From Nitrospira sp. CR1.2 (GTDB taxonomy: Bacteria; Nitrospirota; Nitrospiria; Nitrospirales; Nitrospiraceae), in NCBI GenBank assembly GCA_014055495.1, contig WIAG01000005.1, forward strand, positions 1 to 64,000: a stretch of DNA of 64,000 nt. Direction: 5' to 3'. A model generated the notes under the pieces. The model ran no database searches and was not told the origin of the DNA. It saw only the letters and a list, made by a program, of their open reading frames with translations. Numbering within the stretch: the first letter of the stretch is position 1; every line of letters begins with the position of its first letter. The position numbers were made by a program, and so were the translations under genes. Below are positions 8,117 through 63,737 of this stretch, piece by piece.

Positions 8117-8144
8117 GTATCGGTGTGCGCCGTCTCAAACTTTA
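8117..8144 (-). promoter_or_regulatory. Putative sigma-28 (FliA) promoter for HTH-cheRYZAVB-mcp operon
   Basis: Minus strand TAAAGTTT-N12-ACCGATAC; -35 is a perfect match to TAAAGTTT. Confidence 0.65.
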
Positions 8145-8239
8145 GTTGCCGGTTTCTGTCGGACAATAGGAACGCTCGGCGACCAGCTTGAGCGTGGTTT
8201 CCCAGCGCCCAGGCAGCGAGGGCGCCAGCAGGCGGGCTC

Positions 8240-9073
8240 TTATCGGCTCGTCTCCGTATTCCGGTTCTTCTGTATCGACGCCGATGCGCCAGGGCCACGG
8301 ACTCGGCGTACCTGTTCGGCTGCATCCAGCTGTCCGGCCAAGGTCAGAGCTCCGGCGAGATTCCGGGTTAAGCGTGGATGGTCGGGCGCATGGGCGTTAC
8401 CGAGGCGAAAACTGGCAATTGCGTCTTCGTAGCGACCCAATGCGACATAGGTTTGACCGAGGTTGTTGAGCAGGCCGGGATGCTCAGGCTTGAGGAAACA
8501 GGCGGTGTGGAAGGCGGCCAGCGCATCGGGATACCGTTCGTGCGCATAGGCGACAATGCCCAGCCACGCGTAGGCTCGCCAATCTTGCGGATTCAACACG
8601 ATGGCTCGGCGAAACGCTTGCTCGGCCTCTTCCCATCGGCCAAGACTTGCCAAGGAGCGCCCTTCCCCGTCCAATGCCGCAGCCGACGTCGGATTCTCGT
8701 CGGCCATGGCCGTGAATTCCAGGAGCGCATCCTCCGCCAATCTCTTCTTGAGAAACAGGATGCCGCGCTTCTCTCGGACACGTGCTCGAGCCGGATCGAG
8801 TCGCAACGCCTTTCCGTATTGCGCCATCGCCACCGTTAAATTACCCGCGGCCACGGAGTGATCGGCCAGATGTTCATATTCATCGGCCGTGAGTGAGGAG
8901 GATGCCGGCATGGACTCATCCGCCGACCTGGGCGATTCAGTCGGAACACCGATCCGGTCCGCGGTGGGGTGATGATGGTTCCACGGCGGAGGCACGTGCC
9001 CTCCGCACCCGTACACCGCCCCGCTCAGTGCCACGACGAAATACCATCTCGGATAACGCAGTGTATTCATCAT
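8240..9073 (-). CDS. tadD: TadD-like TPR lipoprotein of Tad/Flp pilus system
   Basis: 277 aa; lipoprotein-like N-terminus (FVVALSGAVYGCGG) followed by TPRs (AMAQYGKALRLDPARARVREKRG..., AEQAFRRAIVLNPQDWRAYAWLG..., AIASFRLGNAHAPDHPRLTRNLAGAL); next to tadC. Confidence 0.8.
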   Translation of the reverse strand: MMNTLRYPRWYFVVALSGAVYGCGGHVPPPWNHHHPTADRIGVPTESPRSADESMPASSSLTADEYEHLADHSVAAGNLTVAMAQYGKALRLDPARARVREKRGILFLKKRLAEDALLEFTAMADENPTSAAALDGEGRSLASLGRWEEAEQAFRRAIVLNPQDWRAYAWLGIVAYAHERYPDALAAFHTACFLKPEHPGLLNNLGQTYVALGRYEDAIASFRLGNAHAPDHPRLTRNLAGALTLAGQLDAAEQVRRVRGPGASASIQKNRNTETSR

Positions 9074-9078
9074 GATCG

Positions 9079-9105
9079 TTATCGGCGGCCGAGTCCAAGA
9101 CTTAA
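9079..9105 (-). promoter_or_regulatory. Putative sigma-28 (FliA) promoter immediately upstream of tadD
   Basis: Minus strand TTAAGTCT-N11-GCCGATAA; -10 is a perfect match to consensus. Confidence 0.7.
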
Positions 9106-9343
9106 CCCAGACATTTCATGCGCACTTCTACTGCCTTCGCTTGTTCCCTGGTATGACGAGCCTTTGCCGAGAAGCTCGCCCATCAGGTCCGGCCGGCTCA
9201 CCGCATTGCCCTTGTCCGCACGCATGGCTCGACTTCTTCGTCGAGCCGCCGATCTCGCCAAGTGACTGGGCGATTTCGCGACGAGTCGTCCTGAATAATG
9301 CGGGCTAAGACATCGGAGTATTGTGAAGGATGTGCGTCCCCGA

Positions 9344-10276
9344 TCAGGGAGCCACAGCATCGCTGAGAAGGCGTAGACCTCGAATCACCGCCGGCCCGAG
9401 GAGGATGACGAAGAGCCCAGGAAAAATGAAAAATATCAACGGAAAGAGGAGTTTGACTGGCAATTGGGACGCGATCTCTGTGGCGCGCAGGTCCTGTCTG
9501 TTGCGTAACCCCTCGGCATGAATCCGCAACGCCTGGCCGATGCTGGTGCCGAATCGTTCGGTCTGAATGACGACCGCCATGAACGCATGGACTTCCTCCA
9601 CCTGCATGCGTTGCGCCGCGCGACGAAACGCGTCTTGCCTCGATCGCCCGCTTCGGATCTCTACGCATAATACTTCAAGGTCTTGACTTAACTCCCGGTG
9701 CATCCTGGCCATCTCATGCGCCACCCTATTGAGGGCCACATCCAGGCTCAGTCCGGCTTCGACACAGACGACGAGCAAATCGAGCGCGGCGGGAAAACCT
9801 TCCACAATCTGTTGTTGTCGGGACGCCGTGCGGTATCGAAGCCACACATCCGGCCCATACCATCCCGCGAAGGAAGCGCCTGCAGCTATGAACAGATTGC
9901 TCCACCATGGACTATCCATCACTAGTTGCAGCAGAACGAACAGAGCAAGGGGACATCCGGTCGCGCCCAGCACTTTCGTGCCATAGAACACCAGCGGCGC
10001 ATTCCGGCTTCGCAAGCCGGCCGTCAAGAACCGCAGGGCGGTCGACTCGCCTTCGGTTGCGGACGGCGCCGCTCGCCGACCCCAGGTTGTCAGCAGCCCA
10101 ATACACAGTTGTCTCCACCGGCCTATGCCCGTCGCGCTTCCCTTCGCGGCTCTCCCCACGACTCGTCGCCGCCAACGACTGACCCTCACAAGATCTCCGG
10201 CCAGGAGTGTTCCTCCGCCGACCACGAGCAGACTGGCGAGCATCACACCGCCAATTAACGGCCACCAGGCATCCAT
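9344..10276 (-). CDS. tadC: Tad pilus inner-membrane protein TadC (T2SSF domain)
   Basis: 310 aa; GspF/TadC-type (FPAALDLLVVCVEAGLSLDVALNRVAHEM..., RNRQDLRATEIASQLPVKLLFPLIFFIFPGLFVILLGPAVI). Confidence 0.9.
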   Translation of the reverse strand: MDAWWPLIGGVMLASLLVVGGGTLLAGDLVRVSRWRRRVVGRAAKGSATGIGRWRQLCIGLLTTWGRRAAPSATEGESTALRFLTAGLRSRNAPLVFYGTKVLGATGCPLALFVLLQLVMDSPWWSNLFIAAGASFAGWYGPDVWLRYRTASRQQQIVEGFPAALDLLVVCVEAGLSLDVALNRVAHEMARMHRELSQDLEVLCVEIRSGRSRQDAFRRAAQRMQVEEVHAFMAVVIQTERFGTSIGQALRIHAEGLRNRQDLRATEIASQLPVKLLFPLIFFIFPGLFVILLGPAVIRGLRLLSDAVAP

Positions 10277-10287
10277 CTCGACACTCC

Positions 10288-11253
10288 CTAAATGCGAACG
10301 GTCACCATACGTTTTGTGACCGCGGCCCCGCCTATCATCAACAGCGCTCCCGTAGTGACCATCGTTCGTCCGAGCGGGTCCTGAAACAAAATCGTAATGT
10401 ATTCCTTGTTGATCAGGTACAAAAGGCCGGCAAGAACCAGCGGCAAGGCGAAGAGAATCATCGCTGAGAGCCGTCCTTCGGCCGACACCGCCCGTACCTT
10501 GGCGGCCAACTCAAAACGCTTACGCGCCATCTGGCTGATCGACGTGATGACTTCCACCAGGTTTCCACCCGATTCGCGTTGGATCATGACCGACGTGACG
10601 AAAAATCTGAGTGCCGCTGAATCGAAACGGTCCGTCAAATGACCTAGTGCCTCGCCCAGCGGCACTCCGAATGTCGCCTCCTCCACCACCCGTCCGAACT
10701 CGGGACCGACTGGTGCGGGAAATTCGTCCGACACCATTTTCATCCCAGCCAGAAGGGAATGGCCGGCCCGCAGCGATCGCCCCATCATGTCCAGTGCCTC
10801 TGGAAGCTGTCGTTGAAAATCGCGGAGTCTGCGGGCCGCGCGCTTGGCCAGAATGCCTCGAACGCCTCCCCAGATAAGAGCCACGATGATTCCTCCGCTC
10901 ATCGGATCGAGTCCGCCCATTGCCATCAGCAAGAAGATGAAGCTGGTCGGCCCGATCACACTGAGCACCAGCCAATCCAGAGACAAGGACATGCCGGCCT
11001 GCCGACGCAACCGCTCCCATCCTGCAATACCGGGCCACCAGGACAGGGTCGTGTCGACCCACGGAACTGGGCTGAACCGGCGCATCCGCGTGATGTTCGA
11101 CGCTCCTTCGATCGCGTATTCCATGCGCGCGAAGTCGCGCTGTGCAGACAACGCATGGTCTCGTTCGGAAGGGAACCATAGGTATAGCCCGGCAGCGGCA
11201 AGGCCGAACGACAGGGTGAAACCCACGACGAGCAGGGCAACAATCATGCGCAC
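10288..11253 (-). CDS. tadB: Tad pilus inner-membrane protein TadB (T2SSF domain)
   Basis: 321 aa; FQRQLPEALDMMGRSLRAGHSLLAGMKMVSDEFPAPVGPEFGRVVEEATFGVPLGEAL... typical of TadB. Confidence 0.92.
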   Translation of the reverse strand: MRMIVALLVVGFTLSFGLAAAGLYLWFPSERDHALSAQRDFARMEYAIEGASNITRMRRFSPVPWVDTTLSWWPGIAGWERLRRQAGMSLSLDWLVLSVIGPTSFIFLLMAMGGLDPMSGGIIVALIWGGVRGILAKRAARRLRDFQRQLPEALDMMGRSLRAGHSLLAGMKMVSDEFPAPVGPEFGRVVEEATFGVPLGEALGHLTDRFDSAALRFFVTSVMIQRESGGNLVEVITSISQMARKRFELAAKVRAVSAEGRLSAMILFALPLVLAGLLYLINKEYITILFQDPLGRTMVTTGALLMIGGAAVTKRMVTVRI

Positions 11254-11259
11254 ATCCTC

Positions 11260-12570
11260 TTACACTTCCCGAATACGTTTCGGATCGAAGAGATCCGGCG
11301 GCACAGCAATACCGAACGCATCCAACCGGGCCATGAAATGAGGTCGCACACCGGCGGCGATAAACCGCCCCCTTACACGCCTCGATTCGTCGAGTCCTGT
11401 CTGCTCGAAGCGAAAAATCTCCTGCAACACAATGACGTCTTGTTCCATGCCCACGACCTCCTGCACACTCATGAGCTTTCGGGTACCGTCGGAGAGCCGG
11501 CTCAGGTGGACAATGACGTCTAAGGCGGAGGCGACATAGTGCCGAAGCATGTGGATCGGCAAGTTGAGACCAGCCATCGCCACCATGGTCTCGATGCGTG
11601 TCACGGCGTCCCTGGCGCTATTGGCGTGAATCGTCGCAAGCGATCCATCGTGGCCGGTATTCATCGCTTGTAGCATGTCCAGGGCTTCGGGACCGCGGAC
11701 CTCGCCGAGGACAATGCGGTCCGGCCGCATCCGCAAGCTGTTACGGACGAGATCGCGCTGGGAGATTTCCCCCTTCCCTTCCACATTGCTGGGTCTGGTT
11801 TCGAGACGTACGACGTGCTCCTGGCGTAACTGTAGTTCGGCGGCATCCTCAATCGTGATGATCCGCTCCTCGGCCGGAATAAATCCGGATAGGAGATTCA
11901 GCATCGTGGTTTTCCCGCACCCGGTGCCGCCGGCAATGAGAATATTCAAGCGCCCGTAGACCATCGCCTTGAGCATTTCACCGATTTCTGGTGTCAAAGC
12001 TCCCCGTGTCACTAAGTGCTCCAGTTGCAGCCGTTCTCTACAGAACTTCCTGATAGACAGAATCGGACCATCGAGCGCAAGGGGTGGAATAATTGCGTTG
12101 ACACGAGAGCCGTCCTCCAATCTCGCATCGACCATCGGCGACGACTCGTCGATACGTCGGCCCACACGCGCCACGATTTTATCGATGGCGTCACGGAGGT
12201 GCTGATTGTCCCGAAAGCGCTTCGGACTCAAAGAGAGTCTTCCGCTCCGTTCTACGTAGATGCGCGCTGCCGTATTCACCAAAATGTCACTGACCTCCTC
12301 GTCCTTCAGCAACGGCTCCAGCGGGCCAAGGCCGAGTATTTCATTCATGACGTCGTTGATGACCTCATCTCGGTCGGCGTTGCTGAAGGCGGCGCCGTCC
12401 TCCTCGAGGATCTGCATGACCAGCATAGCCAATTGCGCGCGTAGCATGATCGGGTCCAGCAGGCTCATCGCGGAGAAATCCAAACGCCCCAACAATCGCT
12501 CTTGGATTCGTTGTTTGAGCGCATTGCGCCCCGCGATCGCCGACTCCATTGTTCTGTCCGTCGCTTCCAT
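11260..12570 (-). CDS. cpaF: Tad pilus secretion ATPase TadA/CpaF
   Basis: Walker [58 protein letters not shown]. Start set at ATG 12568-12570 with GGAGGGG upstream; ORF track start (12651) overlaps the upstream gene. Confidence 0.95.
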
Positions 12571-12605
12571 CTGCCCCTCCGCCTTTGTGAAGAATGGAAT
12601 GCGGG

Positions 12606-13460
12606 CTAGGCCGCATCGCCCCAGAGCCGGGAAATCCAACGGGAGTGCCACGAAGCCGGTCGAGGCAAAGCTTCCCGCTTGGTATCGATTACTCGTTCCG
12701 CCAAACGTTCATAGACCTTTACCACCGCGCCGCTCTTCTTGTCGGCGCACAACAAGCGCCCGGTCTCCAACGCCTCGTGCGCATCCTCAGGGACATTCGG
12801 GACAAGAAAGTCGATCGGTTGCCCGATCAACCCCTCGGCTTCAGCCTGCAGACCCTGATCCTCGCGTCGTGATCGATTCAGGACAACCACCACACGCTCA
12901 CGTCCGTGCCCGAGCGCCTTCAGCGCCTCCATCATGGCGAGGGTACGCCGCATCGCCGGCACTTCGAGCGTGGTCACGAGCAGAACGGTCGTGGCGGCAG
13001 TCAACACTGTGGTCACGGTCGAATTGAGGACTGTGCCGCAGTCGGCCACAATCATCGGAAACAATGATTGTGCAAGGCTGCACAATCGATTGATTTTATC
13101 GGAGGGGACGGACACCTCCGGCAGCCCGTCGTAGTCGGATGCCAACAGATGTAGCCCGGTCTTATGTTTCATGAGGACGCTCATCAAGAGCGTCGGATCC
13201 AGTACCAGAGGATCGCGCATCAATTCCCGCCAAAAATGCTCAGGCTCAAGACGCAACAACAAATGCAAGTCGCCCTCGTACAGATTGAGGTCGAGCAGAG
13301 CCGTTTCCCGATTCAGTTTGCCTCGTTGCGCGCAAAACGCCAGATTCGCGGAGACCGTGCTGACACCGACTCCGCTGTGTGCGCCCATCACACAGACCAT
13401 CGAACGACCGGACTCGGACGAGCCCACCGCCGGTCGATCCGCGTTCACATTGCCGGTCAT
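12606..13460 (-). CDS. cpaE: TadZ/CpaE-like pilus localisation ATPase
   Basis: 284 aa; CVMGAHSGVGVSTVSANLAFCAQ ParA/MinD-like P-loop; between tadG-like and cpaF. Confidence 0.85.
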   Translation of the reverse strand: MTGNVNADRPAVGSSESGRSMVCVMGAHSGVGVSTVSANLAFCAQRGKLNRETALLDLNLYEGDLHLLLRLEPEHFWRELMRDPLVLDPTLLMSVLMKHKTGLHLLASDYDGLPEVSVPSDKINRLCSLAQSLFPMIVADCGTVLNSTVTTVLTAATTVLLVTTLEVPAMRRTLAMMEALKALGHGRERVVVVLNRSRREDQGLQAEAEGLIGQPIDFLVPNVPEDAHEALETGRLLCADKKSGAVVKVYERLAERVIDTKREALPRPASWHSRWISRLWGDAA

Positions 13461-13536
13461 AGCAACCTTCCTCCGTGAGTCGACCGCGACTCGTTCTGTG
13501 ATTCACACACGACCGCCCCCAGGCTCGGTCCTGGCA

Positions 13537-14589
13537 TTACGACACCAGTCCGGGAAGACTCCCTTTGGTTCCATAGTCGGGCCCGCCGCCCCGCCCTACG
13601 GCCACGCTACCGCTCCTCAGCACCCCCTCAAGAACCGGTCCGTTCGGCGTCGACACCAAGGTGAGGACGGCGGTCGAAAACCCCGCGATTCGAAGAGAAC
13701 CGGACGGCGCCTGACAGGAACGCCGTTCGTAGATCGGCACGACCGTGACCCACTGACCGGTCGCCGGATTTTTCTTGGCATCGAACAACGCCTTGATCTG
13801 CGGAAACACTGGAGCAAGACTGCCGCGGACAAACTGGAATCGCGACCGATTTGCCGTCGCAACCGGGCTACTCACACCCCCTGTCGTCAATCCGGACACC
13901 AGCGCCTGAAGACTTGCGATAGTTGCCGGCGCCTGGGTGAAGGTCGTCCAACCGGTACAAGGTCCTGACCCGCCGGCCTGGTAGAACACGACTCGTTTGC
14001 CGTCGACCGTACCTTGGGCGAGAAATCCCGAGGCAATTCCGACAGGAGCCGCCAACCCGCCCAAAGGAACTTCTCCGAGCGGCGTGAGTGCAGCGGTAGC
14101 CGCAGCGGCAATATCCATGTGATGCATACCCAGAAGACCGGCCAGAAACGTCGGTGTGCGCCCGGAGGCGCGAACCAGCAATGCATCCGCCCCCACGTTG
14201 GTACTGACGACGGTTTGCGACACCGGATTCCACGAGCCGATCCGCAGTTCCGCAAGCGTGAGTGTCGTCAAGTTGTCTCGGTTCCGGGCCGCCACTTGCA
14301 CCGCCGACCTCAAGAGTCGTGTTCGATCTACGCCTGAGAGCGCGAGTGTCGGGGCCGTACTTGCAGCGCGTTCGTACACGCCTCCGAGCTGTCGCGCGCC
14401 GGCCAGTGCCGCTGCATCAACGACCGTCTGCGCATGATGGCGCGCCACGAGCGCCGCCCCGATGTCCACGACGACCGCCCCGACAAGGAGCAGGCCGGTC
14501 ATAGCAACGGCGACCACTACCGCCACCCCCCCTTGATCGTGACGCAGCGCAGAACGAGACTGGGCCGTTTCTCCCGTCGGCCTACTCAT
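13537..14589 (-). CDS. TadG-like pilus assembly/pseudopilin protein
   Basis: 350 aa; TadE/G-type N-terminal TM: DQGGVAVVVAVAMTGLLLVGAVVVDIGAALVARHHAQTVVDAAALAGARQLG. Confidence 0.85.
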   Translation of the reverse strand: MSRPTGETAQSRSALRHDQGGVAVVVAVAMTGLLLVGAVVVDIGAALVARHHAQTVVDAAALAGARQLGGVYERAASTAPTLALSGVDRTRLLRSAVQVAARNRDNLTTLTLAELRIGSWNPVSQTVVSTNVGADALLVRASGRTPTFLAGLLGMHHMDIAAAATAALTPLGEVPLGGLAAPVGIASGFLAQGTVDGKRVVFYQAGGSGPCTGWTTFTQAPATIASLQALVSGLTTGGVSSPVATANRSRFQFVRGSLAPVFPQIKALFDAKKNPATGQWVTVVPIYERRSCQAPSGSLRIAGFSTAVLTLVSTPNGPVLEGVLRSGSVAVGRGGGPDYGTKGSLPGLVS

Positions 14590-15046
14590 GTCTCATCAAC
14601 GTGCGCGATCGAAGCGTCACGGTCCCTCTGAGCGCCGGGACAATGTTTGCCATCACATAAAACTGATACGGCGCCGACACGGTCACGATCAGATCTGTTC
14701 CGCTCGGGCCGCCGGCGCCGCTGACCGCGATCGTGGGCGCCACCCCCGTCACGCCTGCTTGAACGAACACCCTGCGAGCCAGCGCCTGAATGTCCCCGGC
14801 GGTCGGTCTCGGCACAGCCTGACGGATGCCGAGACGCGCCCCTTCGTGGCTGGCGGTGTTCAACACCTGTTGCCGAGACAAAGCCAGTCCGAATTCGATG
14901 ATTCCAAACAGGAGCATGATCAGGACGGGTAGCAGGAGTGCGAACTCTACGGCGGCGACGCCTCGCTCATCCCTACCGAGAAATCTTGCGGTTGGACGGC
15001 AGTTGGTACGATGAAGCGCCATTGATACACATCGACCTAGCGGCAC
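14582..15046 (-). CDS. TadE-like pseudopilin
   Basis: 154 aa; DERGVAAVEFALLLPVLIMLLFGIIEFGLALSRQQVLNTASHEGARLG, classic TadE motif. Confidence 0.92.
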   Translation of the reverse strand: MPLGRCVSMALHRTNCRPTARFLGRDERGVAAVEFALLLPVLIMLLFGIIEFGLALSRQQVLNTASHEGARLGIRQAVPRPTAGDIQALARRVFVQAGVTGVAPTIAVSGAGGPSGTDLIVTVSAPYQFYVMANIVPALRGTVTLRSRTLMRHE

Positions 15047-15151
15047 CGGTACACCCTCCCTGTTCGTGGCGACGGCTCCGGGACTCCTTCAGGCACGACC
15101 ATCGTGGGCCTTAGGTCCGGGCCCGCAGCGCCCATACGCCAGGCGCTGCGC

Positions 15152-15472
15152 TCACGGATGTGGGTCCTCCCCAACCAAAGGCGTTGCGCCGGTGATCGGC
15201 TCTTTGGCTCCTGACGGCATCTGCAGCGGGGCCTCGCCCCCTGTTTGTGAACGATCGTACATTCCCAGATAGCCACGTATGACCATTTGCGCTGCACGAC
15301 CGTCCAGGCCTGGCCGGTCGCTTCGCCGGGCGTCGGCCGCTTCGATCTGAGCGGCCTTCATGGCTGTCAGCGATTTCCCGAGTTTCTCCTGTGGCGGCGC
15401 CGGACTTGCGCAGCCGTTGGACAACAGGGCCGTCAACGCAACCGCCCCGGCAATCGCTCTGCGTAGCGTCAT
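15152..15472 (-). CDS. Small predicted lipoprotein in tad operon (possible CpaD/RcpB-position protein)
   Basis: MTLRRAIAGAVALTALLSNGCASPAPPQEKLG...; lipobox LSNGC; start set at internal ATG of ORF 15152..15532. Confidence 0.65.
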   Translation of the reverse strand: MTLRRAIAGAVALTALLSNGCASPAPPQEKLGKSLTAMKAAQIEAADARRSDRPGLDGRAAQMVIRGYLGMYDRSQTGGEAPLQMPSGAKEPITGATPLVGEDPHP

Positions 15473-15535
15473 CGTCGATCCTTCCTTCCTCCCTGCCTCA
15501 TTGTGCCGCTGCCGACGCCCACGGATACCCATCGG

Positions 15536-17005
15536 TCAGGGAATCATGAGGCCTGTGGCCGAGCGTGGCTTTTCTTGACGTCCTGCTGTGGCCTCCGCAC
15601 CGCCCATGTTCGTTGCGCCGTCTTGCCGGCTTGGCAAGCGGCCTTTCAGGTAAAAGTCGACATCGTCCGGATCCAGGTAGCCGTCGGTGGGAAGCGTCAC
15701 CTGCGTCTCCCTCATCGGCGCGACGAAATGCGGCGTCACGATGATGACGAGTTCGGTCTCATTCTTTTGATACTGCGCGCTGCGAAATAGTGCGCCAAGG
15801 ACGGGAATATCGCCGAGTACCGGATACTTTGAAACGTTTTCCCGAACGTTTTCCCTCAACAATCCTGCAATGGCAAAACTTTGCCCATCTTCCAATTCCA
15901 CCATGGTTGAAGCGCGCCGTGTCGTAATGGCCGGGACGACAAATCCTTGTATCGAGAGGCCGTTTGCAAAATCCAACTCCGACACCTCCGGCGTGACGGT
16001 GACGGCGATTTGACGTGCGCTCAACACCACCGGGCGGAAATTGAGCTGAATCCCGAATTTTTGGAATTGAATCGTCGTCACTCCGAACGCCTGCGGAACA
16101 GGAATCGGAAACTCGCCTCCCGCAAGGAAGTGTGCGTCCTGCCCGCTCAGTGCAATCAGGGTCGGTTCCGCCAGCACCTTCACGAGGTTGTCTTCCTTCA
16201 AGGCGTCGATGAAACCCGTCCAGTTGGCCGATCCACTTTGAAAGCGAAAGAGCGCGCTCGCGGCTTGTCCCAACCCGAACCCAAACGGCGGCACGGCGCC
16301 AAGCGGAGAAATGGCTGAGGACGGATCGCCGGAAGGAAGCGGGGATGCCAATCTCTTGAGGACCGATGCACCAAATTGATTGCCGGATCCGCTCACATAG
16401 GACAGGTTCACGCCGATACGCCGCAGCATCGTACGATCCATTTCCGCGACGCGGACTTCCAACATCACTTGGTGGCTGCCGCCGACTTGTAACAGGTTCA
16501 GCACCTTACCCGGTGCGTAGGCCTCGGCGAGCGCGACGACTTGCGTCAAGACCGACGAACTGGTCGTCGTGCCGCTCAACGCGATATGTTCCTGGGACGG
16601 TACGATCCGAAGGGCCGTCTCATCAGGAAACAATTGTTGGAGCTGGTCGCGGAGTCGCGAAACGTCCGGCGACACCACGATGTCATAGGTGACCGATACC
16701 TCGCCCGCCGTATTCCACAATGTCACATTGGTGACCCCGACGCTTTTCCCCATGAGATACACCTGCCGAGGCGTAAGCACGAGGGCGTCGGCGACCTGGG
16801 GATTGGCCACAGAGACACGCGCCAACGGCGCCGGAGCCGAGATGAGCACCGACTTTCCGACGGTCACCGCGACTCGTTCGACAGCCTGCGCTTCCCACTC
16901 AGCCGCCATGGTCGACGGCGCGGCAGACACGAGCGTGGCGCTCACGCACGCCATGCTTACCCACCAGAATACGTGAGTCTGCCAGCTGGGGATGTTCGTT
17001 TTCAC
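15536..17005 (-). CDS. cpaC: Tad/Flp secretin RcpA/CpaC
   Basis: 489 aa; BON/secretin (QAVERVAVTVGKSVLI..., GVTNVTLWNTAGEVSVTYDIVVSPDVSRLRDQLQQLFPDE), secretin core (VMLEVRVAEMDRTMLRRIGVNL, LALSGQDAHFLAGGEFPIPVPQ, VPVLGALFRSAQYQKNETELVIIVTPHFV). Confidence 0.95.
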   Translation of the reverse strand: MKTNIPSWQTHVFWWVSMACVSATLVSAAPSTMAAEWEAQAVERVAVTVGKSVLISAPAPLARVSVANPQVADALVLTPRQVYLMGKSVGVTNVTLWNTAGEVSVTYDIVVSPDVSRLRDQLQQLFPDETALRIVPSQEHIALSGTTTSSSVLTQVVALAEAYAPGKVLNLLQVGGSHQVMLEVRVAEMDRTMLRRIGVNLSYVSGSGNQFGASVLKRLASPLPSGDPSSAISPLGAVPPFGFGLGQAASALFRFQSGSANWTGFIDALKEDNLVKVLAEPTLIALSGQDAHFLAGGEFPIPVPQAFGVTTIQFQKFGIQLNFRPVVLSARQIAVTVTPEVSELDFANGLSIQGFVVPAITTRRASTMVELEDGQSFAIAGLLRENVRENVSKYPVLGDIPVLGALFRSAQYQKNETELVIIVTPHFVAPMRETQVTLPTDGYLDPDDVDFYLKGRLPSRQDGATNMGGAEATAGRQEKPRSATGLMIP

Positions 17006-17031
17006 GTGACTCTCGCTATCCTATTCGCCTG

Positions 17032-18204
17032 CTAGAATTTTAGTTCCGTCCGCGAACTGCCGCGGATCAGTTCCACCGACACGGCCGGTGGTGGGGGCAT
17101 CTTGTTCTGACCTGGAGGATCTGGATTCATGACGGTGGGAACGCTGCTCTCCGCACAACTGTTTGTTTCACCCAGAGCCGTGGGCTGACCCATCGCGGAG
17201 TCCGACTGCACAGAACTGCAGGACTCTCCTCCTCCACGGAGTGGCACCACTTCAGCCCGCGGTGACTGCGCGGGGGGTACAGCCGGCACGTAAGGGGCGA
17301 GTTTCGGGATGGGGCCGGTGACCGATGCGGCTGCCGACTCGCTGTCTGTAGACGTTGCGCTTACTGGTCGCTTGATGGCAGGCGCCTCCCGCACCGCAGG
17401 CGATCGACGCGACATCACGCGGAGCGGACGGTCGGACTTGGGCGGCGGAGAGGCAAATAGTGAAGAGGCCGTCACGCCCGGTGTCGAAACCGTCTCCGCG
17501 CTATGCGGATTCCTGAGCGCCAGATGGACCTTCCCTTCCATGGACGCGAGCGACAGTGTCTCGGCTTCATGGGGGGTCACCTCCAACGTCACGATGGTCG
17601 GCGAGATGCGCGAGGCCTTCTGACTACCGATCAGCGGTTCATCGGCTTTTTCGCCGGATTGATCACTGCCGGTGGACAGCACCAGAATGTCGTTCAGCAC
17701 CAATTTCGTCGCCGGTTCGCCGCCGTTTTGCGTACGCGACATTGTGGTGAGGATGTCTACCCGATCTCCCGACTTGAGCACCCCACCGACTGCGGTGACA
17801 TCGTCGACTTTGATCGCCATTGCGCGCTTCGCGGGATGAGTGATCGCCGCGACGCCGCCGGTCACGACATCGGTGGACGCCAATTTGGACGCGAGGATCG
17901 GTTCCTGCGAGGCCAACGGCGCCAGCAAGACCCGCCCGACGAGTTCCTCGCTTGCCGAGAAGTGCCCATTAGGGACGCTCTCGGAAGGAAAGGGCACAAT
18001 GCGGACCGCATCGCCGGTAAGCACCGATCCCCATGGGAGTTGGCGGGCTGCCACCGCGACGTTGGTCTTTCGATCTCCGGCGGACAGCTCCGCTCGCGTC
18101 TCATCCAATAATTGCTGCACATACCCATAGGCGAACAGGCTGCTGAGCGCTCCCAGCATTCCTCCGATGCCCACCACCGCCAATGCTTTCTGTCGAGGCG
18201 TCAT
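17032..18204 (-). CDS. cpaB: Flp pilus assembly protein RcpC/CpaB (SAF domain)
   Basis: 390 aa; VAARQLPWGSVLTGDAVRIVPFPSESVPNGHFSASEELVGRVLLAPLASQEPILASKLA, GDRVDILTTM. Confidence 0.92.
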   Translation of the reverse strand: MTPRQKALAVVGIGGMLGALSSLFAYGYVQQLLDETRAELSAGDRKTNVAVAARQLPWGSVLTGDAVRIVPFPSESVPNGHFSASEELVGRVLLAPLASQEPILASKLASTDVVTGGVAAITHPAKRAMAIKVDDVTAVGGVLKSGDRVDILTTMSRTQNGGEPATKLVLNDILVLSTGSDQSGEKADEPLIGSQKASRISPTIVTLEVTPHEAETLSLASMEGKVHLALRNPHSAETVSTPGVTASSLFASPPPKSDRPLRVMSRRSPAVREAPAIKRPVSATSTDSESAAASVTGPIPKLAPYVPAVPPAQSPRAEVVPLRGGGESCSSVQSDSAMGQPTALGETNSCAESSVPTVMNPDPPGQNKMPPPPAVSVELIRGSSRTELKF

Positions 18205-18270
18205 GAGTTAGCCTTCTGTTTGTTCGCGCGTGCCTACTTCATGATGCCCAGACATCATGAGAGGATCGCG

Positions 18271-18783
18271 TCACTGTCCGCGCCACCACAGACTAAGTGT
18301 CGTCCCGAGCGCGATCGCAACGCCATATCGCAATACAAGCGGGGACGGCGAGTCCGATATCGCGCCAGGCCACGCGCGGCTAGTCAACAACGCCGTTAGA
18401 TACCAGGTCGCAATGTAGCGAGAGGTGGCGCGTATGCCCCATCGTCGGTAAGCCAGCACCAGAGCGTACATCCCGCCAAGGACAGCGGTGACAAGAGCTG
18501 CGTGTACTACCCCGAGCGGCCCCAAGCAACTTCCCACCGCACCCATGAGTTTTACGTCGCCGGCCCCCATCCCGCCGCAGACATACAATCCGATCAAGAG
18601 CGCAATCCCGAGGCACAACCCGGCAAAGCTGGCGAGAAAGCCATCCAGGCCGCCATGCACCGTATGCAGGCCGATTCCACCGACCACTCCCGCGGCCGTC
18701 AGCCAATTCGGGATCAGGCCCCTTGACATATCGCTGGCGGCGCCACCCAGCACCACCGTCAGCACAAACCACGTAACGTCCAC
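18271..18783 (-). CDS. cpaA: Prepilin peptidase TadV/CpaA
   Basis: 170 aa polytopic; RGLIPNWLTAAGVVGG, GGMGAGDVKLMGAVGSCLG (GxGD aspartic protease motif). Confidence 0.92.
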   Translation of the reverse strand: MDVTWFVLTVVLGGAASDMSRGLIPNWLTAAGVVGGIGLHTVHGGLDGFLASFAGLCLGIALLIGLYVCGGMGAGDVKLMGAVGSCLGPLGVVHAALVTAVLGGMYALVLAYRRWGIRATSRYIATWYLTALLTSRAWPGAISDSPSPLVLRYGVAIALGTTLSLWWRGQ

Positions 18784-18820: not shown

Positions 18821-18985
18821 TCAGCGAATCAGATTGGCCAACCGGTTGAACATGTTCCGGATGTTGCCGCCGAGCGTAAAGGCTGCCGTGGCGATGACCA
18901 CCGCAATGGCAGATGCGATCAAGGCGTATTCGATGGCCGCTGCGCCGTCTTCCTCGTTCAAAAATCGTCGGATCGCCTTCCTCAT
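18821..18985 (-). CDS. flp: Flp/Fap-type major pilin
   Basis: 54 aa, absent from the ORF track: MRKAIRRFLNEEDGAAAIEYALIASAIAVVIATAAFTLGGNIRNMFNRLANLIR; Flp motif EDGAAAIEYALIA; SD-like AAGGAGAG upstream of ATG 18983-18985. Confidence 0.95.
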   Translation of the reverse strand: MRKAIRRFLNEEDGAAAIEYALIASAIAVVIATAAFTLGGNIRNMFNRLANLIR

Positions 18986-19053: not shown

Positions 19054-19080
19054 ATATCGGAGGATTATGGACAAACTTAA
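19054..19080 (-). promoter_or_regulatory. Putative sigma-28 (FliA) promoter upstream of Flp pilin
   Basis: Minus strand TTAAGTTT-N11-TCCGATAT. Confidence 0.6.
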
Positions 19081-19391: not shown

Positions 19392-21074
19392 TCAGTCCCA
19401 GCTATAGACCGCCTCCACGCAGTTACCAACCCCCTGGTATGTCACGCTCCGGCACAGTGCGTGGACGAGTGCGAGGCCGCGACCGAACATCGACTCGTTC
19501 GCGGAGAGAGTAGAGGCGACGTGAGTCGCGTCGAATCCCGGCCCGCTGTCCTCGACGCGGATGACCATGTGCGTACCGACCGCAGACGGCGAATGCTTCA
19601 GACTGATTTGCACATACCCGTCTTGCAGTGCGGCCAAGCGTCGGTCGCGTTCCTGATAGTAGGCGCTGAATCCATCGGGCGCGGTTTTCAGAGTCGATTC
19701 CAGCTGCAGTACACCATGGTCGATGGCATTCGAGATCAGCTCCGTCAATACGGCGAAGAAGCGCTCACGGTGCCTGGCATGACCGGGCAGCAGGCTCACC
19801 AACTGCATCAAGTCCATGATCGGATCAGCCGTTCGCATCTCGTCCGGTCCCAGTCGAACCTCGATGTGCCACGGAAGGACCCTCGAGGGTTTAGGCAAGT
19901 CGGGCTGAATGCGTGCCGCGGCGTTTTCGATGACCTTATCGCAGGGCACATCGACGATCGTGATATCGTCTTCCTGAGCATCTTCGCCGCTGAACACAAC
20001 GAGTGCGGCCACGATCTCTTTGAATGCGCAATCCGTCGCCTGTCCCCGCTTCACACACTCATGCACACGGGCTTCGCCGAACATCTCCCCCGACGGACTG
20101 CGCGCTTCGAGCACCCCGTCCGTATACAGCAATAACCGGTCTCCCTCCTCCATATCGTACGGCTGCAGGTCGGAGTGAAACTCCCGATCGTGCAGCACCC
20201 CCAATGGAGGATGCTGCGATGCCCATTGCATTCGTGCTCCCGACCTGGGGTTGACCAGCAGGACCGGCGGCAGGCCGCCGTTCCACACCGCCGTTCGCCG
20301 ACGAACCGGGTCGATTTCGATTGCGCTGGCAGCACAGAACAGTCCGACCGGCATCGTGCGGTTCAATTTGGTGTTGATTTCCCGGAGAATATCCTGCAAA
20401 GCGTGTCCCCGCTCAGTCATTCGATAAAACACGTCGGCCAAGGGTAACGCGCCGATCGCCGAGGAGAGGCCATGCCCCGTAAAGTCTCCGAGGAACACAT
20501 GAAGCAGGCCGCTCGGAGTCGTGCCGGCTAAGACGAGATCGCCGCCGAGGATTGCCGCGGGCGCCACATGGTAGTTGATGGCCATGCGCTCCATGCAGGG
20601 GGTCGCCAGGATTCTTGTGCGGATCTCATTGGCTACATCGATTTCATGGAGTGAGCGGTCTCGATACGCTTCCAGTTCCTGCTTCTGATCGATCACGCGT
20701 GTGTGCAGTTCTTGCACTCGCGCCCACGCAGCCAGTTTCGCCCGCAACAGCGGCAAGCTATACGGTTTCGTGAGTATGTCATCTCCCCCGGAATCGAGAC
20801 ATTCGGTCAGACCTTTCTGATCGGTCACGGCCGTCAAAAAAATGATCGGGACAAAGCGCGCGCCGGATCGCTGTTTGATGAGCGACGTGGCCTCTTTTCC
20901 GTCCATTTCCGGCATCATTAGGTCCATAATGATGAGATCCGGCTGTTCTTGTTCAAATTGGGCGACTGCTTGTTTTCCGTCCTCAGCCAGCACCACGTTG
21001 TGCCCGTCCTTGCGCAACATGGTCTGTAAGACCTGTCGATTCACATGCGTATCGTCCGCCACAAGGACTTTCAT
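19392..21074 (-). CDS. Response regulator with SpoIIE/PP2C phosphatase and RsbW-like HATPase domain (HsbR-like)
   Basis: REC (MKVLVADDTHVNRQVLQTML, LIIMDLMMPEMDGKEA), PP2C (ILGGDLVLAGTTPSGLLHVFLGDFTGHGLSSAIGALPLADVF..., LLLYTDGVLEARSPSGEMFG), C-terminal HATPase (ELISNAIDHGVLQLES, RVEDSGPGFD). Start at ATG 21072-21074. Confidence 0.9.
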   Translation of the reverse strand: MKVLVADDTHVNRQVLQTMLRKDGHNVVLAEDGKQAVAQFEQEQPDLIIMDLMMPEMDGKEATSLIKQRSGARFVPIIFLTAVTDQKGLTECLDSGGDDILTKPYSLPLLRAKLAAWARVQELHTRVIDQKQELEAYRDRSLHEIDVANEIRTRILATPCMERMAINYHVAPAAILGGDLVLAGTTPSGLLHVFLGDFTGHGLSSAIGALPLADVFYRMTERGHALQDILREINTKLNRTMPVGLFCAASAIEIDPVRRRTAVWNGGLPPVLLVNPRSGARMQWASQHPPLGVLHDREFHSDLQPYDMEEGDRLLLYTDGVLEARSPSGEMFGEARVHECVKRGQATDCAFKEIVAALVVFSGEDAQEDDITIVDVPCDKVIENAAARIQPDLPKPSRVLPWHIEVRLGPDEMRTADPIMDLMQLVSLLPGHARHRERFFAVLTELISNAIDHGVLQLESTLKTAPDGFSAYYQERDRRLAALQDGYVQISLKHSPSAVGTHMVIRVEDSGPGFDATHVASTLSANESMFGRGLALVHALCRSVTYQGVGNCVEAVYSWD

Positions 21075-21406: not shown

Positions 21407-21433
21407 GTATCGGCAAAGACGCGAGAAACTTAA
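21407..21433 (-). promoter_or_regulatory. Putative sigma-28 (FliA) promoter upstream of STAS/REC-PP2C operon
   Basis: Minus strand TTAAGTTT-N11-GCCGATAC (7/8 and 7/8 to consensus). Confidence 0.72.
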
Positions 21434-50711: not shown

Positions 50712-53548
50712 GCCCCCGAACACATTCGCCGTTTCCTCATGCGGAACCGCCGGGAGGTCAGGACCTACCCATCGAAGCACTCTCTCTCCTGTGGGACGCC
50801 GTACCCCTGGGCATGTGTCTCCTCACGGCGGACTCCCGCATCGCCTTCGCCAACCGAGCCGCCACCCGCCTGTTTCATCGAACAGCCGGAGAATGCCTGC
50901 ACGTCTCCCTGTCCGATCTGTTGGGTCAGCCCGTCAAATTGAACGACTCGTTGCGGTCGTCCGGCGTGTGGAAAGTCGCGGAAGAGGCCGGCTTAGCGTT
51001 GGAAGAGACGACGGAAAGCGAGGACGCCGAGTCTCCTACCTATGCCCTGATCGAATGGGAGCAATTACGCATGTCGGGTATCCCGGGCGTCGCTGCGCTG
51101 CTGACGCTGCGGGATGTCACCCGCGAATGCGAGTTGGAAACGGATCGTGACCGGCTGGCGACCGTGGCTGAGGAAAGCCCCTATCCGATCGTCGAAATCG
51201 ATCGGCACGGCAACCTCCTCTATGTGAATCCGGCCATGGTGGAGGTGCTCTGCCGATTCGGGTATGACCTCAGCGGCAGACCGGACATTCTACCGGATAA
51301 TCTCCCTGCACTGGTCGCGACGTGCCTGCTCGAGGGACGAACGCTGCGTTCGCAAGACGTGGTCAGAGGCGAGGCCTGCTACAGTTGGACCCTGTGCCCG
51401 GTGCCCAGCAGCCAACTCGTGCGCGCGTACGGCATCGACCTCACCGAAGTGCATGCCACCCATCGAACCTTGAACGCCACGGCGGATCATCTGCGTGAAA
51501 GCAACCGTCAATTGGACCAGGCGCTCCAGCAGGCGCAGGCGGCGGCGCAAGCCAAGTCGTCCTTCCTGGCCATGATCACGCATGAGTTGCGCACGCCGAT
51601 GAACGGCGTCATCGGCATGGCCAGCTTGTTGCTCGACACCTCCTTGACGGAAGAACAGCGCTCGTTCACGCACACAATCCAGCAATGCGGCGAAGCGCAG
51701 TTGTCGCTGATCAACGACGTCCTCGAGTGCAGCAAAATCGAAGCCGGTAAGCTGGAACTTGAAAGCCTCGACTTTCAGTTACGCACCACGGTGGAAGACG
51801 TCTTATCACAATTCGCTGAACGGGCTCAGCGCAAGGGGCTTGAGATCACCGGACTGGTCCATGCCTCCGTCCCCAATGCACTACGCGGCGACCCCGGCCG
51901 ATTAAGGCAGGTGCTGACGAATTTCGTGGGGAACGCGGTGAAGTTCACCGAGCAGGGTGAAGTCACGGTACAAGCCTTCCTGGAGCAGGATAGCCCGGCC
52001 GGCGTGACGATCAAGTTTGAGGTCACCGACTCCGGTATCGGCATCAGTGAAGAGGTGCAAGGTCGACTCTTCCAGGCCTTTGCACAAGCCGACAGTTCCA
52101 CCACCCGTAAGTACGGCGGAACGGGCCTTGGACTCGCAATTTCCAAACAGCTCGTGGAACTGATGGGAGGCCAGGTCGGCTTGCGGAGCCGCCCCGGTGA
52201 AGGGACGACCTTTTGGTGCACGGCCGTCTTCCAGAAGCAACCCGTCTGTACTCCGGCCATCGTGCGATCCGCCGAATTGAGCGGGCAGCGTGTGCTCATT
52301 GTCGACGACAACGAGTCCAATCGCACGATTCTGCACCACCTCATTTCAGGATGGGGCATGCAGGACGGTCAGGCCCGCGATGCGGCGGAGGCGCTGGAGA
52401 TGCTGACCCAGGCTGCGGCCAAGGGAGAGCCCTACGATGCGGCCATCCTCGACATGCTGATGCCGGGCAAGGACGGACTTCAATTGGCCCAGGAGATCAA
52501 GGCCCACCCGCATGGCGCTGGGGTGCGATTGGTCATCCTGACCTCATTGATTCAGCCCGGCCATGCGGAACGGGCCCGCCGCGCCGGCTTCTCCGCGTAC
52601 CTCACGAAGCCGGTTCGTCATGACCAACTGCAGGGGTGTCTTCGCGTTGTATTCGGGATCCAGCACGGCCCCGGAACCGCCGGAGCCGGCACCGGCACGA
52701 GCCAGACCGCCGCGCCTCCCCTCATTACCAGGCACACATTGGCGGAACAGTCTCAACGACCGAGAATCCTGGTTGCTGAAGACAACGTCGTCAATCAGAA
52801 ACTGGCCGTCCGCATGCTCGATCGACTCGGCTACCAACCGGATGTCGTTTCCAACGGCCAGGAAGCGGTCACGGCGTTTGAACGGGAATCGTATGCCGCG
52901 ATCGTGATGGATTGTCAGATGCCGACGATGGACGGATACGAGGCCACCAGGCAGATCCGCGCGCAGGAGCAACGTCCGGATCATCCTCGAACACGTGCAC
53001 ACATTCCGATCATTGCATTGACGGCCAATGCCATGCCGGGCGACCGCGAGCGATGCAAGGCCGCGGGCATGGACGACTACCTGACCAAGCCGGTCAAGAC
53101 GGACAATCTGGGGCTGATTCTACAGCGTTGGGCTCCATTGCCGTCCCCGACGGACGCTCCCGCGCCGGTGCCACGGCGCGAAACGACCAAAACCGATGCA
53201 CTTGTGTTTGATGCAGGGGCGATGTTGGCTAATATCGGCGGAGATGCCGAACTCTTCGAACAACTGATCCGACTGTTCCTCGACCGCCACGGCCTCTTGA
53301 TGAAAGACATTGAAACGGCCATCGGCCAAGCCGATGCATCCGCCCTTGAACGGGCGGCACACAGCCTCAAGGGCACCGCCGCTAATCTCTGCGCACCGGA
53401 GGTCGTCCTGCTGGCTGGCCAGCTGGAAGCGAACGGTCGTCTCGCGAGCTTGACGGATGCCCCTTCCCTCCTTGTGCAATTGGACCGCACGGTTCAGGAA
53501 CTGGTGTCGGTCTTGTCACGTCAACTCGCACCTCCGCCCTCAGCGTAA
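50708..53548 (+). CDS. Hybrid sensor histidine kinase (PAS-PAS-HisKA-HATPase-REC-REC-HPt)
   Basis: 946 aa; [91 protein letters not shown]...[28 protein letters not shown] overlap with the HD-GYP gene. Confidence 0.96.
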
Positions 53549-53667: not shown

Positions 53668-54126
53668 TTACACCGCTACTGCAGTTGCATGAGTAGAAAC
53701 AGACGGTGTGAACAGGGGGTACCGTGTGGGGAGATCTTCAGAGAGCACCAGTTGTTTGCAAAGCCTGGTGCGGTGATTCATGACCAACGGACCGCGCAGA
53801 TTGGCGGTGACGGCGGTGGGATCGTCGGAGGGGATCGTGAGGATCGTCACCACCGAGAGCTCGTCGTCATCCTTCTTTTGAATCTCGATTAAGGCATCTG
53901 TTGCAATCGTAATCTGATAGTCCGGCTTGAAGTACGCCGGATCCAGAATGACGAACGCCAGTTGCGGTTCTTCGACACACTGCAGCCATTTGAACGGCGC
54001 ATCCGTGTCATGATCCAGCATGACGTATTTGGTCCAGTCCGGGAATCCCAGGATCCCGGAGGGAAACACCAGCAGAGTCTCATCCTTGACGTCAAAGGTC
54101 CCGAACCTGGCCGACTGACACTTCAT
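53668..54126 (-). CDS. fliW: Flagellar assembly factor FliW
   Basis: 152 aa; LLVFPSGILGFPDWTKYVMLDHDTDAPFKWLQCVEEPQLAFVILDPAYFKPDYQ...VVTILTIPSDDPTAVTANLRGPLVMN. Confidence 0.97.
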   Translation of the reverse strand: MKCQSARFGTFDVKDETLLVFPSGILGFPDWTKYVMLDHDTDAPFKWLQCVEEPQLAFVILDPAYFKPDYQITIATDALIEIQKKDDDELSVVTILTIPSDDPTAVTANLRGPLVMNHRTRLCKQLVLSEDLPTRYPLFTPSVSTHATAVAV

Positions 54127-54135: not shown

Positions 54136-54381
54136 TCAGCCTCCCCGGCGGCCGGTTTTATTGGACAATTGGCGGAAGGCTTCAAGCGGAATCACTCCCG
54201 GCCCCGCCGCGATGCGATTTTCATCCTGGATCCGCGCATGCACTTCATCGCGATGCACCTGCACATTGGGCGGTGCTTCGATGCCGAGCCGCACTTGCCC
54301 GCCTTTGATGCCGAGCACCACGATGCGGACATCGGGTCCGATGGTGACGCCTTCGCCCCGACGTCGTGTTAAGACCAGCAT
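54136..54381 (-). CDS. csrA: Carbon storage regulator CsrA
   Basis: 81 aa; MLVLTRRRGEGVTIGPDVRIVVLGIKGGQVRLGIEAPPNVQVHRDEVHARI. Confidence 0.98.
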   Translation of the reverse strand: MLVLTRRRGEGVTIGPDVRIVVLGIKGGQVRLGIEAPPNVQVHRDEVHARIQDENRIAAGPGVIPLEAFRQLSNKTGRRGG

Positions 54382-54455
54382 ACAAGCCTTCCTTGGCGTG
54401 TGGATACGGGTACATTGGGTATATCGGTTCCGGTGAGGATGAACTTGAGCGCTGG

Positions 54456-57309: not shown

Positions 57310-57615
57310 CTACAGCACCGCGTCCGTCAAGACGTGACGGATCATGGAATCTGCAACCTTCTTTCCGTCGACGGTGTACGTACCCCCTTCGACCGACTGC
57401 TGAATCTGGCCGACTCTGGCATCACGTTCAGTATCCGGCTGTTCAGCTGCCGCCCTCAGGCGCTGGAGTTCTTTGGCACGCTCGGAAATCTGGACGCGGT
57501 CTTGTGACTGCGTCTGCTGAGATGCGGTCTTCTTATCGTGCGTCCGATCCGTTTCCTGAACGCCCAATAGAATTTTTGCGAGATCCGCCGCCCGGCCGTT
57601 GTTTGAGATCTCCAT
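57310..57615 (-). CDS. flgM: Anti-sigma-28 factor FlgM
   Basis: 101 aa; QSQDRVQISERAKELQRLRAAAEQPDTERDARVGQIQQSVEGGTYTVDGKKVADSMIRHVL. Confidence 0.94.
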   Translation of the reverse strand: MEISNNGRAADLAKILLGVQETDRTHDKKTASQQTQSQDRVQISERAKELQRLRAAAEQPDTERDARVGQIQQSVEGGTYTVDGKKVADSMIRHVLTDAVL

Positions 57616-57673: not shown

Positions 57674-57701
57674 CTATCGGCGGGGAAGGCAGGGAACTTT
57701 A
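57674..57701 (-). promoter_or_regulatory. Putative sigma-28 (FliA) promoter upstream of flgM
   Basis: Minus strand TAAAGTTC-N12-GCCGATAG (7/8 and 7/8 to consensus). Confidence 0.72.
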
Positions 57702-61745: not shown

Positions 61746-61758
61746 AGCACTCCTCCTC

Positions 61759-62523: not shown

Positions 62524-62564
62524 GTGTTTTTGTCGTTCCTTCCTGATGCTCCACCGGGAGAGAT

Positions 62565-62580
62565 AGCAATGCACATGCCA
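62565..62580 (-). promoter_or_regulatory. Putative sigma-54 (-24/-12) promoter upstream of flgF
   Basis: Minus strand TGGCATGTGCATTGCT, full match to TGGCAYRNNNNTTGCW, about 42 nt upstream of the flgF ATG. Confidence 0.75.
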
Positions 62581-62793
62581 TTTCTCTCAGGCGATGTTCG
62601 CAACAGGTGTGCGATCGCGATCCGAAAGAAAATGTGAACGATTGCCGGTAGATGTGCGTGGAACGGCAGCGACGGACGCAGATGAGGCGCGTGCGTGAGC
62701 CCAGCGGAGGCCGTCAAGGAATGAAGCGATGGGGAACTCTTTGCCGGTGACTAGGAAAGTCCTGCCTACAAATGCGGAGAACGACGCGGCACG

Positions 62794-63672
62794 TCAGGCG
62801 GCAATCGTGGAAGTCGAATCGGAGGTCGACGTCTCAGGCGTACCGGCAACCCCGCTGAGACTGTCGCCGGCTCCATGCGTGCGTTCCATGGCGTGCAGGG
62901 CAGCATCGACCAACCCATGGGCATCGTGTCCATCACGGCTGGAGAGAGCGATGCCGATGCGGCTGCTGAGGAGTAGCTCATGGCGATCGAGGGTGACCGG
63001 ATGGGCGATCGTGCACTGCATCTTCTTCGCAATCGCCAGGACCTCCTCCGACCCCGTCACATGCTCCAACAGAACCGCAAACCGCGCGTCCGCAAGCCTC
63101 GCGACCACGTCGGTCGTCTTCACCGCGCTCTTCACGCGTGCGGCCTGCACACGGTACATCAAATTCCTGTTGAGCATCGCATAGGCGTCGGTTTCAGGGG
63201 TGAAGTGCTCAAGCTCAATCACCAGAACGGCTGCCTGCCCTTCTTCCTTCTGAGCCCGGATCAGGGCCTGGCTTAAGAGGGCGAGAAACAAGCGATGCAT
63301 CGGCAACCCCGTCACCGCGTCGTACGTGTACGCCGCGCCGACCAACGAGATCGGCGCCGCCGTATCCGTAGCGGAATCAGTCCCGTGGTTGCGTGCGGTC
63401 CAGTTGGCCGCCCCGAAAATCATGACGGACACGACCACTCCCAGCATGACCATGAGTGGATACGCGGTCAATGCCGAAAGGGTGAGGAGCCCTACCGACG
63501 CGGTCCAGTACAACCCGCCCGCCATAAACAGGACACAGGCCACGACGCCGAACCTGGCGGCATCGTTCGAACCTGCATGGCTGAGGGACTCCGTTCCATG
63601 GACAGCCCTCGATCCGTTGGCGTTGCGGCTGTCGATGGAGGTAGATGGGGACGCGTTCATAGACGCAGGCAT
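62794..63672 (-). CDS. Membrane protein with degenerate GGDEF domain
   Basis: 292 aa; two N-terminal hydrophobic segments; YDAVTGLPMHRLFLALLSQALIRAQ...RLADARFAVLLEHV, with GGDEF replaced by ADARF. Confidence 0.8.
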   Translation of the reverse strand: MPASMNASPSTSIDSRNANGSRAVHGTESLSHAGSNDAARFGVVACVLFMAGGLYWTASVGLLTLSALTAYPLMVMLGVVVSVMIFGAANWTARNHGTDSATDTAAPISLVGAAYTYDAVTGLPMHRLFLALLSQALIRAQKEEGQAAVLVIELEHFTPETDAYAMLNRNLMYRVQAARVKSAVKTTDVVARLADARFAVLLEHVTGSEEVLAIAKKMQCTIAHPVTLDRHELLLSSRIGIALSSRDGHDAHGLVDAALHAMERTHGAGDSLSGVAGTPETSTSDSTSTIAA

Positions 63673-63709
63673 CCAGGATTGATGGCTGATGCGCTACAAG
63701 GTCTAGACG

Positions 63710-63737
63710 ATATCGGAGGAGTCTCGGGGAAACTGTA
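63710..63737 (-). promoter_or_regulatory. Putative sigma-28-like promoter upstream of degenerate GGDEF gene
   Basis: Minus strand TACAGTTT-N12-TCCGATAT. Confidence 0.5.

Follow-up and report, generated by a model that had tools for sequence, protein, structure and literature searches.

Predicted FliA (sigma-28) promoters join late flagellar, chemotaxis and c-di-GMP genes with an accessory Tad pilus in Nitrospira

We analysed a stretch of 64,000 nucleotides (the window; positions 1-64000 of contig C29, 117,938 bp) from the 4.06 Mb genome of Nitrospira sp. CR1.2 (labelled G000), in which sites resembling promoters of the flagellar sigma factor FliA (sigma-28) precede genes for flagella, chemotaxis, cyclic di-GMP (c-di-GMP) proteins and a Tad pilus. 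These predicted promoters very probably constitute a late-flagellar regulon in Nitrospira that takes in flp, the Tad pilin gene, and genes for swimming and for surface attachment would probably be switched on together. Gene content was assigned with Pfam and NCBIfam. The window is 93% coding and carries a chemotaxis operon, a Tad pilus cluster, a receiver-SpoIIE-HATPase protein, a STAS protein, a PilZ protein, fliD-flaG-fliC and a glycosylation island, together with ycgR, an HD-GYP gene, fliW-csrA, flgL-K-N-M, flgJ-I-H-A-G-F, a gene for a GGDEF-domain protein and fliA. The sigma-28-like sites and genes described below lie on the minus strand unless otherwise indicated.

An earlier note on this DNA had listed nine sigma-28-like motifs. 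All nine are present where it placed them, and all except the one ahead of the HD-GYP gene score far above chance. The pattern TWAAGTYT-N13-CCGATA, with up to two mismatches, occurs 7 times in the window against 0.36 expected from shuffles, and TWAAGTYT-N12-CCGATA 4 times against 0.31, numbers that were reached in 0 of 100 shuffles in either case. The note had held that an equal motif density in shuffled sequence would speak against its reading; the density in shuffles is far below that of the window. Taken by itself the -10 element, CCGATA, is uninformative, with 37 occurrences in the window. Genome-wide density was assessed by pattern searches with the reversed pattern as control. Exact matches number six in 4.06 Mb, five of them in the 64 kb window, while the two-mismatch class is mostly background (12+21 and 11+35 matches, versus 24+21 and 19+21 for the reversed control). 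The only exact motif outside the window (G000:C123:36834-36859) lies beside dtd and has no evident target.

A weight matrix was trained on the orthologous fliC, flgM, cheR and csrA sites from Nitrospira genomes other than G000. On both strands of the 118 kb contig, the sites ahead of the STAS, TPR, flp, GGDEF and ycgR genes ranked directly below those of fliC, flgM, cheR and csrA and above every other position, these five being recovered without training on their own promoters. At 18.8 bits the matrix gave 9 hits in the window, each intergenic and upstream of a correctly oriented gene, with 0 in other intergenic sequence and 0 in coding sequence; 2000 column-permuted matrices at 17 bits gave a mean of 0.008 upstream hits and a maximum of 1. 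The excess of intergenic over coding hits that the earlier note had proposed to look for is present in the window by matrix. A TAAA-like -35 element and a CCGATA-like -10 element, with N11-12 between the octamers, characterize the sites, the HD-GYP one weakly. A site upstream of a parA-like gene (14.7 bits, -10 ACCGAAGA) was left out of the set, as several congeners are without it.

The assignment of these sites to sigma-28 is well supported, because fliA itself lies at the right edge of the window, as the note had claimed. Its 3' part occupies 63812-64000 (whole gene, contig 63812-64582) and scores 261.8 bits with TIGR02479 (cut-off 189.6); it is the only FliA/WhiG family gene above the curated cut-off in the genome, which also encodes one FlgM.

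It is textbook knowledge that flagellin, flgM, chemotaxis and ycgR are under FliA, and the two canonical targets, fliC and flgM, carry sites throughout the congeners compared. Conservation was counted in orthologue upstream regions from up to 18 congeners, G000 counted in. The fliC site, TTAAGTCT-N12-ACCGATAA (26771-26798; 25.6 bits), is found in 17/17 congeners at 128-134 bp; the spacer of N11 given earlier was one base out of register. It precedes the flagellin gene fliC (25813-26640), which is followed by flaG (25372-25746) and fliD (23950-25344). The flgM site, TAAAGTTC-N12-GCCGATAG (57674-57701; 25.1 bits), stands ahead of flgM-flgN-flgK-flgL in 18/18 congeners at 56-64 bp, and the gene for the anti-sigma-28 factor FlgM (57310-57615) matches PF04316 and, above cut-off, TIGR03824. 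A third strong site, TCAAGTTC-N12-ACCGATAT (54421-54448; 25.2 bits), precedes csrA (54136-54381) and fliW (53668-54126), again in 18/18 congeners (37-40 bp). The earlier list was incomplete in that it overlooked this site, and also a weaker one ahead of cheB. In Bacillus subtilis fliW-csrA is under sigma-D; likewise, csrA and fliW would here be under the flagellar sigma factor, in the order csrA-fliW and with their own conserved site.

The best-scoring site of the contig, TAAAGTTT-N12-ACCGATAC (8117-8144; 26.8 bits), heads the chemotaxis operon (1673-7764), which comprises cheR, cheY, cheZ, cheA, cheW-receiver and cheB genes (assigned by Pfam, and cheY from its translation and orthologue matches). 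It is kept in 13/13 genomes, 349-356 bp before cheR. The che operon does lie downstream, as had been proposed, but the first gene behind the site is a small one ahead of cheR, encoding an HTH_17 DNA-binding protein (7876-8106; PF12728, 3e-18), whose start codon lies only about 11 nt past the -10 element. This gene is always found behind the strongest sigma-28 site, with the che operon in 13 genomes and with motAB in two. In those two, G012 (C7) and G019 (C37), motAB followed by STAS and receiver genes takes the place of che behind the promoter and HTH_17 gene, so that the promoter is conserved and the motility operon downstream of it varies. The weak cheB site, TCAAGCTT-N12-GCCGATGT (2786-2813; 13.7 bits), is kept in 12/13 genomes.

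Three genes of c-di-GMP protein families also carry conserved sites. The ycgR site, TCAGGTTT-N11-ACCGATAC (49292-49318; 18.9 bits), lies about 36 bp before the start in 17/17 congeners, and the product (48528-49256) is a YcgR-type flagellar brake (PilZNR and PilZ by Pfam) in which both PilZ motifs, RxxxR and DxSxxG, are kept. Divergently, the site TAAAGGAG-N12-ACCGATAT (49351-49378, plus strand) scores 12.5 bits, among chance hits; its position, ACCGATA and a TAAAG/TTAAG -35 core are nonetheless kept in 18/18 congeners. It precedes an HD-GYP phosphodiesterase gene (49455-50711, plus strand; DUF3391 and HD by Pfam), followed by a hybrid kinase gene (50708-53548). The HDIG and HHExxDGxGFP residues of the phosphodiesterase are kept, with Y replaced by F as in many orthologues. 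The third site, TACAGTTT-N12-TCCGATAT (63710-63737; 19.1 bits; 17/17 congeners), precedes the gene adjoining fliA, which encodes a degenerate GGDEF-domain protein (62794-63672; PF00990) with ADARF in place of GG[DE]EF at the active site. The GG[DE]EF motif is absent from this protein in all congeners checked with an orthologue, and the sigma-28 site is kept nonetheless. By its motif the protein would not be a cyclase; binding of a partner or ligand is a possible role. Since the motif is missing in all of these congeners, the c-di-GMP parts of the predicted regulon with intact motifs are those for sensing (YcgR) and breakdown (HD-GYP), and synthesis is not evident. The FliA class 3 regulon of enterobacteria has the same consensus and includes fliC, flgM, chemotaxis genes and c-di-GMP effectors such as ycgR; the Nitrospira set differs in having an HD-GYP rather than an EAL phosphodiesterase and adds csrA-fliW and the Tad pilus.

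The fliC, flgM, csrA, ycgR, HD-GYP, GGDEF and che sites lie at near-fixed distances in all genomes counted for each. In alignments the spacer drifts while the elements are kept, conservation values for -35, spacer and -10 being 1.00, 0.65 and 0.96 for fliC, 0.84, 0.48 and 0.94 for ycgR, and 0.88, 0.52 and 1.00 for GGDEF. Some further genera of the family also keep the fliC, flgM, csrA or HD-GYP site. The control genes fliD, flgK, parA-like, hybrid kinase, flgJ, tadC and u180 showed no comparable conserved CCGATA site upstream.

Conserved sites were likewise found at three targets outside the window, reached from the genome-wide pattern matches, which strengthens the case for a genus-wide regulon. 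An HD-GYP paralogue (HD pair degenerate in G000) has a site of at least 16 bits 52-61 bp upstream in 25/27 genomes. A receiver-HATPase_c_2 protein (L038, G000:C42:90237-91172), possibly another partner-switch kinase, has a site above 17 bits in 15/18 genomes, and an OmpR-like response regulator has one about 20 bp upstream in 20/22 genomes, with CCGATG/C rather than CCGATA at -10.

The Tad cluster of the window (9344-18783) contains tadC, tadB, tadA, tadZ, tadG, tadE, a tadE/F-like gene, the rcpA secretin gene, rcpC and the tadV prepilin peptidase gene (Pfam and NCBIfam), so that with the Flp pilin the TadA ATPase, TadB/C, RcpA, RcpC and TadV are all present. The flp gene (18821-18985) encodes a pilin of 54 aa (translation MRKAIRRFLNEEDGAAAIEYAL..., 67-87% identical to its orthologues) and lies 69 bp behind the site TTAAGTTT-N11-TCCGATAT (19054-19080; 19.2 bits). 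Upstream are a response regulator gene of receiver-PP2C(SpoIIE)-HATPase_c_2 architecture, like that of HsbR (19392-21137; Pfam), and a gene for an HsbA-like STAS anti-sigma-factor antagonist with a Ser in IDSTGLGML (21071-21373; PF13466/PF01740, TIGR00377 below cut-off). The STAS gene has a site of its own, TTAAGTTT-N11-GCCGATAC (21407-21433; 21.3 bits), and correcting its start to 21373 yields a normal leader as well as a ribosome site, GGAGGAG. At the end of the cluster, a site that is an exact genome-wide match, TTAAGTCT-N11-GCCGATAA (9079-9105; 20.7 bits), precedes a gene for a TPR protein (8240-9073; Pfam TPR hits) with a lipoprotein-like N-terminus in its translation.

Tad genes were detected in 9/29 congeners by RcpA/RcpC searches (G021 from RcpC alone, its contigs ending inside rcpC), and 5 genomes have the sigma-28 site. 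Two Tad types occur. Modules of the window type are found in G000, G015, G019, G021 (two copies) and G022 and always hold the STAS, receiver-SpoIIE-HATPase and flp genes together. In all 6 of these orthologous modules a site above 18 bits lies 40-73 bp upstream of flp, with differing spacer and flanks. The modules of G015 (C29) and G022 (about 220 kb away) lie outside the flagellar locus and still have the flp site, which argues that the site travels with the Tad module; both also have a second sigma-28 site ahead of rcpC. In G000 the module sits between the che promoter and the parA-like gene, and the distance from that gene to cheR is 13.8 kb, versus 0.54 kb in twelve other genomes; in G021 the STAS gene adjoins the same parA-like gene. 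The rcpA of G019 is in two overlapping pieces (G019:C22:11506-12940), a frameshift or assembly error.

The partner-switch pair invites comparison with Pseudomonas, where unphosphorylated HsbA binds FlgM and frees FliA (PMC6482189). As in the HsbR-HsbA-FlgM system of P. aeruginosa (PMC6482189), a receiver-PP2C-kinase response regulator and a STAS partner occur in an organism with FlgM and FliA; unlike there, the Nitrospira pair lies inside the Tad cluster, and its link to FlgM is drawn by analogy. It is conceivable, though doubtful, that the pair acts on FlgM in the manner of HsbA and thereby governs FliA, so that the Tad module would feed into the flagellar sigma factor in a self-amplifying way; this would add to the proposed regulon rather than compete with it. 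The domain order of HsbR, the phosphorylatable Ser conserved in the STAS partner (PMC6482189) and the presence of the pair in all six sigma-28-type Tad modules point this way. On the other side, proteins of receiver-PP2C-HATPase type also act on RpoS and other targets, the STAS similarity is at superfamily level only, and FlgM binding is suggested by analogy. If the pair frees FliA as in Pseudomonas, the Tad module would boost the very sigma factor that transcribes it.

Several observations weigh against the proposed regulon. The STAS site is partly conserved, being weaker at the same place in G019 and in both G021 modules and absent from G015 and G022. The TPR site was seen in G000 only, no close orthologue having been found for a conservation comparison, and the TPR start lies 6 nt past the -10 element, which predicts a leaderless mRNA. 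In the other Tad type (G001, G004, G011, G013) no site scored above 17 bits in the sequence retrieved, which for G011 was short. The HD-GYP site is weak, with a poor -35 element, and the direction of a behavioural switch is not fixed by sequence. One could accordingly hold that function is confined to the flagellar, chemotaxis, csrA and c-di-GMP sites and that those of flp, STAS and TPR are chance resemblances, as the STAS and TPR data and the siteless Tad type would allow. We consider this improbable: the flp site exceeds 18 bits within 40-73 bp in every window-type module despite differing spacer and flanks, and in dinucleotide-matched random sequence, with both strands counted, hits above 16 bits number about 0.5 in 118 kb. 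It is less probable still that the sites serve another sigma factor, or a repressor or activator overlapping the sigma-28 consensus. In favour of this, the genome encodes further sigma-70 family proteins that match the FliA/WhiG model below its cut-off; against it, FliA is the sole member above the cut-off, and the fliC and flgM sites fit the classical FliA consensus and spacing.

Within the integrated motile-to-sessile regulon proposed by the earlier note, control of flagellin, FlgM, chemotaxis, PilZ, HD-GYP and Tad pilin is supported by conservation, and the csrA and GGDEF sites are conserved as well; the proposal in its original form is weakened where the GGDEF protein is degenerate, the STAS site partly kept and the TPR site confined to G000.

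For the late-flagellar regulon itself, the sequence shows the sites, where they lie, how far they are conserved and that FliA is the only one of its kind; that FliA binds and transcribes from them, at what stage, and what the switch does are inferred. Export of FlgM would release FliA, which would then direct expression of flagellin, flgM-flgN-flgK-flgL, the HTH_17 gene and che operon, csrA-fliW, ycgR, the HD-GYP gene and the gene for the degenerate GGDEF protein, and, outside the window, of the HD-GYP paralogue, the receiver-HATPase protein and the OmpR-like regulator. In G000 and four congeners it would also direct expression of flp, whose Tad module has an HsbR/HsbA-like partner switch of its own. 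Production of the Tad attachment pilus would thereby fall late in the building of the flagellum, when cells swim and are ready to attach; the HD-GYP protein would favour low c-di-GMP, and the YcgR brake would already be in place.

Some features of the window stand apart from these sites. At the left edge (1-1670) lies part of a gene for a methyl-accepting chemotaxis protein (PF00015 at C29:38-592, minus strand), and a plus-strand open reading frame there (14-1102) is probably spurious. No Rfam families were found in the window. Sigma-54 sites in it are at chance level (9 found versus 11.4 expected), with the exception of a sigma-54-like sequence, TGGCATGTGCATTGCT (62565-62580; 1 mismatch), which overlaps the annotated flgF start.

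Control of Tad by FliA has a precedent in Bdellovibrio, where FliA activates the Tad operon promoter in a reporter in E. coli (PMC5430801). As in B. bacteriovorus and B. exovorus (PMC5430801), a flagellar sigma factor would act at the Tad pilin promoter; in Nitrospira the site directly upstream of Tad-linked flp is present in 6/6 modules, and promoter activation in a reporter comes from Bdellovibrio only. In Bdellovibrio, a predator, FliA is essential and acts as master regulator of the attack phase (PMC5430801), unlike in Nitrospira, where Tad is an accessory module with its own partner-switch pair.

Divergent Tad loci in four genomes of the same order have c-di-GMP-I-GGC riboswitches (RF03167) before their flp genes (L134:1575-1656, plus strand; L136:14471-14550, minus strand; L135:2417-2497; L137:12825-12905). 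In G049 and G058, of a sister family, a sigma-28-like site of 18.9 bits lies 26-29 bp before the riboswitch, behind which flp genes stand in tandem; in G055 and G060 the riboswitch occurs with no sigma-28-like site upstream. Tentatively, the flagellar sigma factor may have gained control of Tad pili repeatedly within the order that includes Nitrospira: in the genus as a module that moves with its own sigma-28 site and an HsbR/HsbA-like switch feeding back on FlgM/FliA, and in G049 and G058 with a sigma-28 site and riboswitch, such that pilin would require both flagellar completion and a second-messenger signal.

Literature searches found no report of a FliA-Tad regulon in Nitrospira, although papers beyond the searched set are possible. 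What is new here is that these genes are combined, that the combination is conserved across the genus and that the Tad module is mobile and brings a switch of its own, FliA-Tad control being known from Bdellovibrio. Nitrospira bacteria rank among the major nitrite oxidisers; they live in biofilms, and genetic work on them is difficult. The conserved promoter set points to which genes for attachment, c-di-GMP and post-transcriptional control (CsrA-FliW) are coupled to the assembly of flagella, and to which accessory pilus has been plugged in, and it adds Nitrospira to Bdellovibrio as a second lineage of bacteria whose Tad pilus seems to be controlled by the flagellar sigma factor.

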